64,000 bases of DNA from a candidate division TA06 bacterium (GTDB taxonomy: Bacteria; Edwardsbacteria; AC1; EtOH8), in assembly GCA_016235665.1 (NCBI GenBank), contig JACRJI010000016.1, positions 186,001 through 250,000 on the forward strand. The letters run 5' to 3'. A program made the position numbers and the translations under genes. This document shows, piece after piece, positions 5,985-54,205 of this stretch. The notes beneath the pieces were generated by a model. That model had not been told where the DNA came from. It worked only from the letters and a program-made list of their open reading frames with translations, and ran no database searches. Numbering within the stretch: the stretch's first letter is position 1; each line of letters opens with the position of its first letter.

Positions 5985-6033
5985 GTATGCTGTATACTGT
6001 TTGGCGTTCACTGTTCATTGACAATTGTCTTGA
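5985..6033 (-). repeat. heptamer-periodic tract C between wecB and galE
   Basis: Plus-strand G anchors (GTA, GTA, GTT, GTT, GTT, GAC, GTC) fall at 5985, 5992, 5999, 6006, 6013, 6020 and 6027: seven units at exact 7-nt spacing. The tract covers the wecB stop (6008-6010) and ends against the galE ATG, so it forms the whole junction between the two genes. Confidence 0.85.
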
Positions 6034-7279
6034 CTATCCGCTCCGCCGCATGGCCGTCCCACCTGGGGATCGAAGTTTTGCGCTGTCTGCTGTATGCTGT
6101 AGGCTGTACGCTTTTGAATTTGCCCCAGGCTTTAAGTATCGCTCCGGGCTTCGTGCCGATGACCTTGTTCGTCCCCAGTTCCACCGTAACCGGGCGCTCG
6201 GTGTTGGGCCGCACCGTAAAGCAGGGCACCTTCAGAAAACTTGTTTCCTCCTGCACCCCGCCGGAATCGGTGAATACGCAGACCGCGTGTTGCTGCAGCG
6301 CTATAAAATCCAGGTATCCCAGCGGAAGAACTATCTTCAGCCTGTTTTTACTATTTCCAATTTCCGATTTCCCATTTTTTACCCTGAGCGGGGCCTGCGG
6401 TGAGCAATGCCGAACCGTCGAAGGACTGCCGTTTGTCTTTGTTTTCAGCCGTTCGAGAGTTCGTGGGTGGGCTGGGAATATTACCGTGGTTTCCTCGGCG
6501 ATCTGCTCAAATGCTTTTACGATGGGGCCCAAGACCTTGGGGTCGTCCACATTGGAGGGCCGGTGCAGTGTCAAAATCACGTAGGGCTGTATCCTGTCCC
6601 CTTTTACCAACCCCAGTTTGTTCAGGCATCTTTTATTTTTTATTTTTGGTATTTCAGTTTTAAGCGTATCGATCATCACATTCCCGGCGAAATGGATCTT
6701 AGTTTTGGGAATTCCCTCTTTCAGCAGATTCCCTAAAGCCTCGGGACAGCTGGTGAACAAAAGGTCCGAGATATGATCTGTCAGTACCCGGTTCAGCTCC
6801 TCGGGCATGGTCTGATCGTAACTGCGCAGGCCGGCCTCCACATGGGCCACCGGGTTACCGGACAGCTTGGCGGCCAGGGCGCAAGCCATGGTTCCCGTTA
6901 CATCGCCCACCACTATCACCAGGTCCGGTTTTTGGACGGCCAGCACTTTTTGGAACTTGGTAATGATCTCATCGGTCTGCCCGGCCGTGGTGCGGGCCTT
7001 GACGTTAAGGAAGATGTCCGGTTTGGGAATGTTCAGATCTTCAAAGAATACCTTGGACATCAGATAGTCGTAGTGCTGGCCGGTATGCAGCAACAGAATC
7101 CCGGGCCGTTTAGCTTTGGGCAAAGCCTTAAAGGCCTTAAGCAGCGGGGACACTTTGACGAAGTTGGGCCGGGCTCCGGCCACAATGATGATCTTTTTGT
7201 ACTTGATATTCACTCCGGACGCAGATTTTCGCAGATTAAGATGATTCAATTGCTTGTCAGGTGATACTTGCGAAACCAT
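6008..7279 (-). CDS. wecB: UDP-N-acetylglucosamine 2-epimerase (non-hydrolysing)
   Basis: 423 residues, longer than the roughly 360-380 usual for WecB. Family motifs: AGARPNF (34-40), HVEAGLRS (about 147-153), TLHR (about 237-240), TDSGGVQEE (337-345) and VRPNTERP (356-363). It makes UDP-ManNAc for the surface glycan. Three insertions coincide with heptamer tracts: residues about 207-218, about 278-314 (with a second repeat type next to it) and about 386-403. A decamer repeat lies in the N-terminal 25 residues, so the true start could be a GTG at 7213 rather than the ATG at 7279. All catalytic motifs survive, so I treat it as functional. Confidence 0.9.
   Translation of the reverse strand: MVSQVSPDKQLNHLNLRKSASGVNIKYKKIIIVAGARPNFVKVSPLLKAFKALPKAKRPGILLLHTGQHYDYLMSKVFFEDLNIPKPDIFLNVKARTTAGQTDEIITKFQKVLAVQKPDLVIVVGDVTGTMACALAAKLSGNPVAHVEAGLRSYDQTMPEELNRVLTDHISDLLFTSCPEALGNLLKEGIPKTKIHFAGNVMIDTLKTEIPKIKNKRCLNKLGLVKGDRIQPYVILTLHRPSNVDDPKVLGPIVKAFEQIAEETTVIFPAHPRTLERLKTKTNGSPSTVRHCSPQAPLRVKNGKSEIGNSKNRLKIVLPLGYLDFIALQQHAVCVFTDSGGVQEETSFLKVPCFTVRPNTERPVTVELGTNKVIGTKPGAILKAWGKFKSVQPTAYSRQRKTSIPRWDGHAAERIVKTIVNEQ
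6081..6116 (-). repeat. heptamer-periodic tract D inside wecB
   Basis: Plus-strand CTGT occurs four times with the G at 6085, 6092, 6099 and 6106, followed by one decayed unit. It encodes wecB residues about 386-403 (region QPTAYSRQRK), a segment absent from the family consensus between the VIGTKPGAI region and the WDGHAAERI region. Confidence 0.75.
6346..6380 (-). repeat. heptamer-periodic tract E inside wecB
   Basis: Plus-strand ATTT anchors at 6353, 6360, 6367 and 6374. Encodes wecB residues about 302-314 (NGKSEIGNSKN). Immediately next to it (6384-6425) lies a degenerate element ending GTCGAAGGACTG that resembles the REP-like sequences at 4938-4966 and 50855-50900, so the insertion here is composite. 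Confidence 0.75.
6631..6665 (-). repeat. heptamer-periodic tract F inside wecB
   Basis: Five units beginning TTT on the plus strand at 6631, 6638, 6645, 6652 and 6659; the first two are identical (TTTTATT). Encodes wecB residues about 207-218 (KTEIPKIKNKRC), between the GNVMIDTL segment and the strand leading to TLHR. Confidence 0.7.
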
Positions 7280-25341: not shown

Positions 25342-25363
25342 GTTAAATCATGTTAATCCTGTC
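25342..25363 (-). repeat. short decamer repeat at the waaA 3' end
   Basis: GTTAAATCAT and GTTAATCCTG occur back to back on the plus strand (period 10). The second unit reaches the waaA stop, so the last residues of WaaA derive from it. Minor. Confidence 0.35.
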
Positions 25364-26669
25364 TTCTCCGGTTGATCTTTCCCGCCACCAGCTCCGCCGT
25401 ATGCTTGGAAACTCCCCTTTTGGAATCAACCAAACTGCGCGCTTTGGATCCGGTTGAAAATCTTTTTTGCTCATTGCCGAGAAGATCGTTTAAGATCGTC
25501 TTCAACTCCCCGGTATCCTTCACCTGCATCGCCCCGCCGCAGGCCAGAAGTCCTTCAGCGCTTTCCCGGGCGTTGAACATGTGGGGGCCGAATATCACCG
25601 GAAGCCCCAGGGCCGCCGGTTCCAGGGGATTATGCCCTCCCACCGGCGCCAGGCTGCCGCCAACAAAAGCGATATCCGAAGCCGCGTAGGCATTGACCAG
25701 TTCGCCGATGGTGTCCAGCAGCAGGACATCGAAATTGCTGGAAGCCCCGCCGTTCTTTTGTCCGCTGCGTTTGCTATAGTTCAAGTTTTGGGTGACAAGT
25801 AGTTTTTCCACCTCGGAGAACCTCCCCGGATGCCTCGGCGCTATGATCAATTTAATCTTTTGATTTTTGATTTTTGATTTTTGATTTTGCAATTCCTGCC
25901 AGGCCCCAAGTATCACAGTCTCCTCACCCTCCCTCGTGCTTCCGGCTGCAAACACTAGATCCTCCGGGCTCAGGCCGAAGTCCTTCCTCAAATCCTGTTT
26001 CTCTGTGGCAGAGACCGGACCCTTGATCCCGTCGTATTTCAGGTTTCCGGTGACGGTGACGAGGTCCCGGCGAACGCCCAGAGCCAGGTAGCGGTCAGCA
26101 TCCGCTTTGCTCTGGCAGGCTATCAGCTGCAGAGTGTTCAACAGCGGTCCGAACAAAAAACGCAGGGCGTTATAGTATCTGAAGGACCGGGCCGAAAGCC
26201 GGGCGTTGACCAGGAACACCGGAACGTTTTGCTTTTGGCACTGCCAGATCAGGTTGGGCCAGATCTCGGTCTCAGTCAGGACCAAGGCCCCGGGCCTTAC
26301 CCTCTTCAAAGCCAGCTTTTGGGCGAACCAGAAATCCAAAGGCAGAAAAAATATCCCGGCTGTTTTCCCGGAAAAGATCTCGCCGGCCCGCTTTTGCCCG
26401 GTGACGGTCATGGTGGACAGGACGATGTTCTTTTCAGGCATCAGGATTTTGAGCTGCGCCAGAAATGGGGCGATCACCCCCATCTCGCCCACCGAGGCCC
26501 CGTGGATCCAGACCGGACGGCCTTCTTGAGGTGTCAGCCAGCCCAGCCTCTGCCGCCATTTTTGGCGGTGGCCCAAGGCCAGCATCAACAGTAAATATGG
26601 CCATCCCAGCAGGAGGGCCATAAAAGTGATCAGATGGTAAAGTCCCATTCCCAAGGAAAATATCATCAC
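25353..26669 (-). CDS. waaA: 3-deoxy-D-manno-octulosonic acid (Kdo) transferase
   Basis: 438 residues. N-terminal membrane anchor (about 1-33), WIHGASVGEMG with the conserved glutamate (E62), LTETEIWPNLI (about 131-140), APRHPGRF and the C-terminal GGHNPLEPAALGLPVIFGP. It adds Kdo to lipid IVA on the cytoplasmic face, direct evidence for an LPS outer membrane. Residues 261-273 (QNQKSKIKNQKIK) are encoded by heptamer tract H and sit at a surface-loop position just before APRHPGRF; normal members lack them. Overlaps the upstream kinase gene by 4 nt. Confidence 0.95.
   Translation of the reverse strand: MMIFSLGMGLYHLITFMALLLGWPYLLLMLALGHRQKWRQRLGWLTPQEGRPVWIHGASVGEMGVIAPFLAQLKILMPEKNIVLSTMTVTGQKRAGEIFSGKTAGIFFLPLDFWFAQKLALKRVRPGALVLTETEIWPNLIWQCQKQNVPVFLVNARLSARSFRYYNALRFLFGPLLNTLQLIACQSKADADRYLALGVRRDLVTVTGNLKYDGIKGPVSATEKQDLRKDFGLSPEDLVFAAGSTREGEETVILGAWQELQNQKSKIKNQKIKLIIAPRHPGRFSEVEKLLVTQNLNYSKRSGQKNGGASSNFDVLLLDTIGELVNAYAASDIAFVGGSLAPVGGHNPLEPAALGLPVIFGPHMFNARESAEGLLACGGAMQVKDTGELKTILNDLLGNEQKRFSTGSKARSLVDSKRGVSKHTAELVAGKINRRRQD
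25855..25890 (-). repeat. heptamer-periodic tract H inside waaA
   Basis: TTTTTGA recurs with its G at 25862, 25869, 25876 and 25883: nearly perfect, the least decayed tract of the set. It encodes WaaA residues about 261-273 in frame. Confidence 0.85.
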
Positions 26670-51011: not shown

Positions 51012-51677
51012 TTACTTTAAACGATTGTGCACCAGCTGCCGGACCGCTGCCTGGATCACGTCCGGGGGGAAGCTCCCGTCCAGAACCTTTACCCTGTCCG
51101 GGTCGGCCTTGGCTATGGCCAAAAATCCCCGCCGGACCTTTTGGTGGAATGCCTTCTGCTGCCGCTCCATCCTGTCCAGTGCCCGTTTTCTTTTGGAGGC
51201 CCGGGCAAATCCCTGTTCCACCGGCAGGTCAAAGACCAGGGTCAGCCTGGGCCAGCACCCGCCCACCGCTATCTGGTTCAGCCGGCTGATCATCTCCAGG
51301 TCCATTCCCCGTCCGTAGCCCTGGTAGGCGGTGGAGGAATCGGCAAAGCGGTCGCAGATCACGATCCGTCCCGCCTTCAGCGCCGGGATTATCACCTGGG
51401 CCAGGTGCTGGGCCCGCGAGGCTTCCAGCAGCAGCAGTTCGGCCAGCGGGGACATGTGGTGGTTCCTGGAATCCAGCAGGACCTTGCGGATTTTCTCGGC
51501 GATAGGCGTCCCGCCCGGCTCCCGGGTGACTATGACCTGATGCCCCCGGCTCTTCAGCCACTTGGCCAGAAGCATGGCCTGGGTGGTCTTGCCGCAACCC
51601 TCGATTCCCTCAAAGCTGACAAACAAACCCTTGGAATTCTGAATTCTGAATTCGGAATTCTGAATTCGGCGAGACAT
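51012..51677 (-). CDS. tmk: thymidylate kinase
   Basis: 221 residues. P-loop FEGIEGCGKTTQ (residues 22-33), ICDRFADSSTAYQGYGR and the LID region (about 150-165). It phosphorylates dTMP. The first 17 residues (RIQNSEFRIQNSK) are encoded by heptamer tract I and would not be needed; removing them gives the usual length of about 205. The ATG lies 2 nt after the inositol-phosphate synthase stop, so translation by coupling through the tract is likely. Confidence 0.95.
   Translation of the reverse strand: MSRRIQNSEFRIQNSKGLFVSFEGIEGCGKTTQAMLLAKWLKSRGHQVIVTREPGGTPIAEKIRKVLLDSRNHHMSPLAELLLLEASRAQHLAQVIIPALKAGRIVICDRFADSSTAYQGYGRGMDLEMISRLNQIAVGGCWPRLTLVFDLPVEQGFARASKRKRALDRMERQQKAFHQKVRRGFLAIAKADPDRVKVLDGSFPPDVIQAAVRQLVHNRLK
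51630..51669 (-). repeat. heptamer-periodic tract I at the tmk N-terminus
   Basis: Five GAATTC hexamers at 51634, 51641, 51648, 51655 and 51662, each followed by one variable base (T, T, G, T, G). Because three heptamers equal seven codons, the peptide itself repeats with period seven (RIQNSEF twice). Confidence 0.9.
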
Positions 51678-54156: not shown

Positions 54157-54205
54157 TTTACAACCGTTCAAACGTTTCAAACATTTCAAACGTTTGAAAC
54201 ATCGG
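54157..54205 (-). repeat. nonamer-periodic tract upstream of rsmI
   Basis: CGTTTCAAA, CATTTCAAA and CGTTTGAAA follow one another at 54173, 54182 and 54191, then a fourth decayed unit at 54200, giving exact 9-nt steps. A partial unit at 54165 is 8 nt before. It fills the spacer between the unknown gene and rsmI. Confidence 0.75.

Follow-up and report, generated by a model that had tools for sequence, protein, structure and literature searches.

The stretch of DNA analysed here (64,000 nucleotides; hereafter the window) contains a wecB gene at positions 6008–7213 on the minus strand, which encodes a non-hydrolysing UDP-GlcNAc 2-epimerase of 401 amino acids. The product matches TIGR00236 with 302.6 bits (cut-off 210.15), and also Pfam Epimerase_2. 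The longest open reading frame, as listed, extends to an ATG at 7279 and has 423 amino acids, 22 codons beyond a GTG at 7213. This ATG was dropped in favour of the GTG because the TIGR00236 match begins only at residue 29 of the open reading frame, WecB orthologues begin near the GTG in the alignment, and a codon-model gene call places the gene at 6011–7213 (stop codon excluded). Read from the GTG, WecB exceeds the 366-position model by about 35 residues. The original prediction of an enzyme about 50 residues longer than usual was not confirmed, 22 of the extra residues being an artefact of the open reading frame start. The alignment comprised 61 WecB-like sequences, and the predicted structure has a mean pLDDT of 85.9. 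One alignment started two codons downstream of the GTG, which does not affect the tract sites. Comparisons were made with seven members of the same family (G001–G007), of which G001 and G002 are congeners of the present genome.

Three heptamer-like tracts, here called D, E and F, are present within wecB as predicted, and the reading frame remains open across all of them. Tract D (6074–6117, minus strand), in the C-terminal loop before IPRWDG, reads CAGCCTA CAGCATA CAGCAGA on the sense strand. The heptamer part of tract E (6343–6381, minus strand) reads GGGAAAT CGGAAAT TGGAAAT, and tract F (6626–6665, minus strand) is composed of AAAATAA-type heptamers (KIKNK). Local codon shuffles at period 7 gave P = 0.0002 for D, 0.0002 for E and 0.0006 for F; when the whole wecB gene was reshuffled synonymously, the best period-7 score reached at least 22 of 28 in none of 1000 trials and at least 21 of 28 in three of 1000. 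Chance periodicity was rejected on the basis of these codon and synonymous shuffles. All three tracts are repeats at the level of the DNA and lie away from the catalytic motifs of the family, as had been claimed. The accompanying suggestion that each occupies a tolerated loop suits E, where pLDDT falls below 50 (residues 259–286, about 6350–6433), and to some extent D, over part of which pLDDT is low, but not F, which is in a confidently modelled helical stretch.

The three tracts had been interpreted as independent insertions, but the alignment does not bear this out: F involves no change in length, D of the present genome involves almost none, and E is the sole clear expansion. The F segment (GNVMID..QP) consists of 34 amino acids in the present genome and in G001, G002, G003, G006 and G007; the tract is present in the first three of these and absent from G003, G006 and G007. 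Since the length is the same with or without the tract, F is not an insertion but an ordinary segment with heptameric codons. G001 has four AAAAATC-type units there. The segment has 30–31 amino acids in the remaining WecB-like matches, several of which resemble other 2-epimerase paralogues. A WecB from the Bacteroidetes (L056, 4001–5077) contains an apparent heptameric stretch, SAISNQLSAISGQ, at site F, which lengthens the segment to 36 amino acids, and the F segment can apparently acquire heptamers in another phylum too.

Loop D has 34 amino acids in the present genome, about five above the typical 29 and one above the 33 of the tract-free family member G007; it reaches 49 in G002 and 59 in G001. 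The D arrays of these two congeners both open with KRQKAEL(T/K)NGEMG, which indicates that the D array was inherited within the genus and is older than their split. Loop E, between FPAHPRT and PLGYLD, has 57 amino acids when the heptamers and an adjoining dispersed element are counted together, the typical length being about 36; it has 63 in G002, 53 in G001, 45 in G003 and G006, and 35 in G007. The idea that inserts at E and D come in steps of 21 nt (three units) was rejected, the differences between congeners being irregular (12–75 nt). In WecB loop E of G002 (L002/L126), GAATACA/GAAGACA is followed later by the complement AGTATTC/AGTCTTC; the two are inverted and could pair.

The original prediction placed a second repeat type beside tract E and regarded the locus as a repeat hot spot, and E does contain a small dispersed element in addition to its heptamers. 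This CCTTCGAC...GCTCAGG element lies at 6383–6424 (minus strand), as judged from its sequence, its matches in the genome and a comparison of copies, and encodes SPSTVRHCSPQAPLRV within WecB. A diverged second copy, GGTTCGGCATTGCTCACC, is apparently nested inside it at 6399–6416. With at most one mismatch, CTTCGACNNNGCTCAGG has 25 matches in the genome and none for the reversed control, dispersed copies of the kind that define CTTCGAC-N-GCTCAGG as a small dispersed repeat. A few of the genomic copies sit in AAAATCA-like sequence (L142, L143 and L148, whose flanks were compared), and the element also occurs at WecB site D in G001. Exact matches to CCTTCGACNNNGCTCAGG were found in 20 of the 98 genomes searched, across many families, and none were found for its reversed control. 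One unrelated genome (G071) has 119 copies of CCTTCGACNNNGCTCAGG, in which three central bases are variable. We know of no name for this short repeat. The small dispersed repeats of Nostoc reportedly sit within heptameric repeats. The CTTCGAC element resembles them in its very small size and its position within heptamer arrays, and is apparently self-nested in WecB E; it differs from them in sequence. Loop E probably grew further by gaining this element, and it demonstrates that true growth does take place where a loop permits; E together with the element leaves room for a real insertion.

Arrays of this kind are distributed across the genome. In a sample of 418 kb, made up of the window and about 354 kb of sampled stretches of the same genome, 24 tracts were recovered at period 7, compared with 0–7 at periods 4–6, 8–13 and 15 and nine at period 14, a multiple of 7. 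Twelve of the 24 are located between genes, nine inside called genes and three at edges. With genes called by a home-made caller (called coding density 0.825), arrays are about six-fold less dense per kb inside genes (9 in about 345 kb) than between them (12 in about 73 kb). The arrays share head-to-tail 7-nt units above chance and an excess between genes with the heptanucleotide simple sequence repeats of bacteria. Host genes include those for WaaA, Dus, Fmt, FtsY, a GT4 glycosyltransferase, an M1 peptidase and others, and the end of trmD is overlapped. Within the window, a waaA-like KDO transferase gene (25357–26666, minus strand), identified by gene call and alignments, carries an internal AAAATCA array at 25848–25898, and an array of four to five GAATTCT copies, likewise of the heptamer kind, lies outside called genes (51628–51673, no strand assigned). 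Period 7 is abundant in samples of G001 and G002 and of the more distant G010 and G056, and G005 is poor in it. Among the three congeners, the intergenic stretch just past wecB has a long array in G001, a short one in the present genome and none that is obvious in G002.

Orthologues of five array-bearing genes were taken from G001–G007, mostly fragmented assemblies, and aligned; the sites were picked because the present genome carries a tract there, and the segments for comparison were set by eye. For each of the five (WaaA, Dus, Fmt, FtsY and GT4), heptamers recur at the site in several species, usually with a different unit. The WaaA site has heptamers in G002, G001, G006 and G004 and weak ones in G003; it is 61 amino acids long in these five and 62 in the present genome (+3 nt), and 54 in G005 and G007, which have no array. 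In Dus the units are AAAATCA in the present genome, GAATTCA in G002 and AATGCAA in G001, and G005 and G007 have weaker arrays; the site spans 56–57 amino acids where arrays are present, and G003, G006 and G004 are without one. The Fmt site has 60 amino acids in seven of eight species. FtsY units across species are AAATTTC and GAATTCA, and the site differs between genera, with 60 amino acids in the present genome and G002, which share the same array, and 46 in G005 and G007. FtsY of G001 was left out at the array site, its frame being interrupted in the assembly: the break (G001:C108:1221-2102) is near the heptamer linker of the present genome and G002, and reflects either a fault in the assembly or a genuine frameshift. 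In GT4 a run of AAAAGAT/AAAATCA in the present genome corresponds to GGCAGAA in G002, AAATTCA in G001 and GAATTCA in G006; the site has 37 amino acids in five of six species, including G003, which has no array, and 35 in G007, also without an array. Periods other than 7 score far lower at these orthologous sites, 14 excepted.

Orthologous arrays keep their phase and nearly always their total length, and the unit changes across all copies together. Identities within the array and between species in the same column are 0.85 and 0.65 for WaaA, 0.87 and 0.68 for Dus, 0.87 and 0.47 for Fmt, 0.98 and 0.75 for FtsY, 0.83 and 0.59 for GT4, and 0.81 and 0.81 for WecB-F, the species being related and the pairs in these comparisons, as in the phase test, therefore non-independent. 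Identity within the array is thus the higher at five of the six sites and equal at WecB-F, where the present genome and G002 are nearly identical. For the phase test, segments were fixed per gene and each array was rotated at random; WaaA of the present genome was omitted, since it is 3 nt longer. The probability of the observed agreement under random phase is 0.0015 for WaaA, 0.022 for Dus, 0.005 for Fmt, 0.15 for FtsY (two species), 0.007 for GT4 and 0.021 for WecB-F, and the summed identity was reached in none of 4000 random rotations. In pairwise comparison, phase zero is the best in most cases for WaaA, Dus, FtsY and WecB-F, and in only three of 10 for Fmt.

Shared position, shared phase and near-constant length across species indicate descent in place followed by turnover of the unit, and the closer match within arrays than between orthologues at five of the six sites indicates concerted evolution without change in length. 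We therefore favour, with a probability of roughly 0.6, the reading that the wecB tracts belong to a population of short degenerate arrays, spread through the genome, that are ancestral and have been homogenised in place in a length-neutral manner. Each array would already have existed in an ancestor, and length-neutral copying would keep it periodic while one unit overwrites another. The copying step is most likely a transient misalignment of primer and template by 7 nt, followed by realignment; a short conversion from the adjacent unit is an alternative step, and a similar pattern would arise if arrays at other loci served as donors for conversion. A net gain or loss of 7 nt in these genes would shift the frame and be purged, and length would be free to vary in intergenic arrays and in loops E and D of WecB, which are permissive. 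Descent in place with length-neutral change of the unit accounts at once for where the arrays lie, for their phase and length and for their differing units, whereas independent insertion accounts for the differing units but not for phase or length. No protein function is implied for the tracts, which are most probably filler that the proteins tolerate. The wider proposition, that short heptanucleotide arrays can persist for the age of a family in housekeeping genes through length-neutral, phase-locked homogenising in 7-nt steps, non-triplet repeats thereby evolving in concert in coding DNA without frameshift, has in our estimation about an even chance of being right.

The original prediction envisaged active invasion of coding sequence, that is, mobile heptamer arrays repeatedly inserted in the same permissive loops, with in-frame copies selected. 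Such invasion would fit the true expansion of WecB E, the strong differences in E and D lengths among the three congeners, the CTTCGAC element present in loop E here, at site D of G001 and in 20 of the 98 genomes searched, and the embedding of some of its copies in heptamer-like sequence. Unrelated orthologues with the same extra segments and a conserved amino-acid sequence, which according to the original prediction would have refuted it, were not found in the alignment, the amino acids differing between species. It is nevertheless unlikely: the lengths of the F, GT4 and Fmt sites are almost unchanged with or without arrays, and the arrays of WecB-F and of the other genes share position, phase and mostly length across species, a common phase that would be mere coincidence if the insertions were separate. 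An unsystematic look revealed no target duplications. Selection of the arrays for a function, as disordered linkers, regulatory nucleic-acid structures or phase-variation switches, seems less probable still. Loop E is modelled as disordered, and G-rich intergenic heptamers of Xanthomonas and Nostoc form quadruplexes (PMC4692102). On the other hand, the alignments show no amino-acid conservation between species at the WecB and other array sites. Furthermore, the units vary widely, array-free orthologues exist (Dus in G003, G006 and G004; WaaA in G005 and G007), and arrays are the rarer inside called genes. A switch of 7 nt in either direction in ftsY or fmt is probably lethal, which counts against phase variation. 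Ordinary low-complexity, lysine-rich coding sequence with periodicity due to chance or composition is very improbable: tract F, taken by itself, is rich in A and also has fairly high scores at other periods, but the codon shuffles (P = 0.0002–0.0006) and synonymous reshuffles, the excess of period 7 over all other periods (14 excepted) at the same sites, and the 7-periodicity of orthologous sites in other species all oppose it.

Heptanucleotides are the commonest class of long simple repeats in most bacterial genomes surveyed, with a scattered phylogenetic distribution, and 7-nt polymerase slippage has already been proposed as their origin, as these matters are summarised in later accounts (Mrazek 2007 via PMC4679880; PMC4692102). 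The arrays described here resemble the heptanucleotide repeats of those accounts, including those of Calothrix (PMC4692102), in their 7-nt unit; to the extent that the accounts describe them, they differ in being degenerate, in occurring also in housekeeping genes, and in sharing phase and near-constant length while their units turn over between species. The TAACTGA direct repeats of Beggiatoaceae are likewise heptamers that are mostly intergenic, with a few in open reading frames, mostly at the periphery of domains, but they repeat a single invariant heptamer, frequently located immediately before a start, whereas many different units occur in one genome here (PMC4679880). Borg tandem repeats are also intragenic, fast evolving and often disordered, but their intragenic units are near-perfect and divisible by three, whereas the present unit is 7 and imperfect (PMC9879509). 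Our search found no description of concerted heptamer turnover in coding genes, although this is weak evidence as the search reached few subscription papers; heptanucleotide repeats are known, and it is their phase-locked turnover inside housekeeping genes that appears new. Repeats with a non-triplet unit should be eliminated from genes, since slippage shifts the frame. If length-neutral homogenisation in place is correct, arrays with fixed phase and length but a changing unit would reveal a distinct 7-nt-step copying error, a result of relevance to the predominance of heptamers among the long simple repeats of many bacteria. Strain comparisons at the orthologous sites found here can put the turnover to the test. 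Among the few non-heptamer arrays of the window is a 9-base repeat, TTCAAACGT, present in 3.8 copies at 54167–54202.
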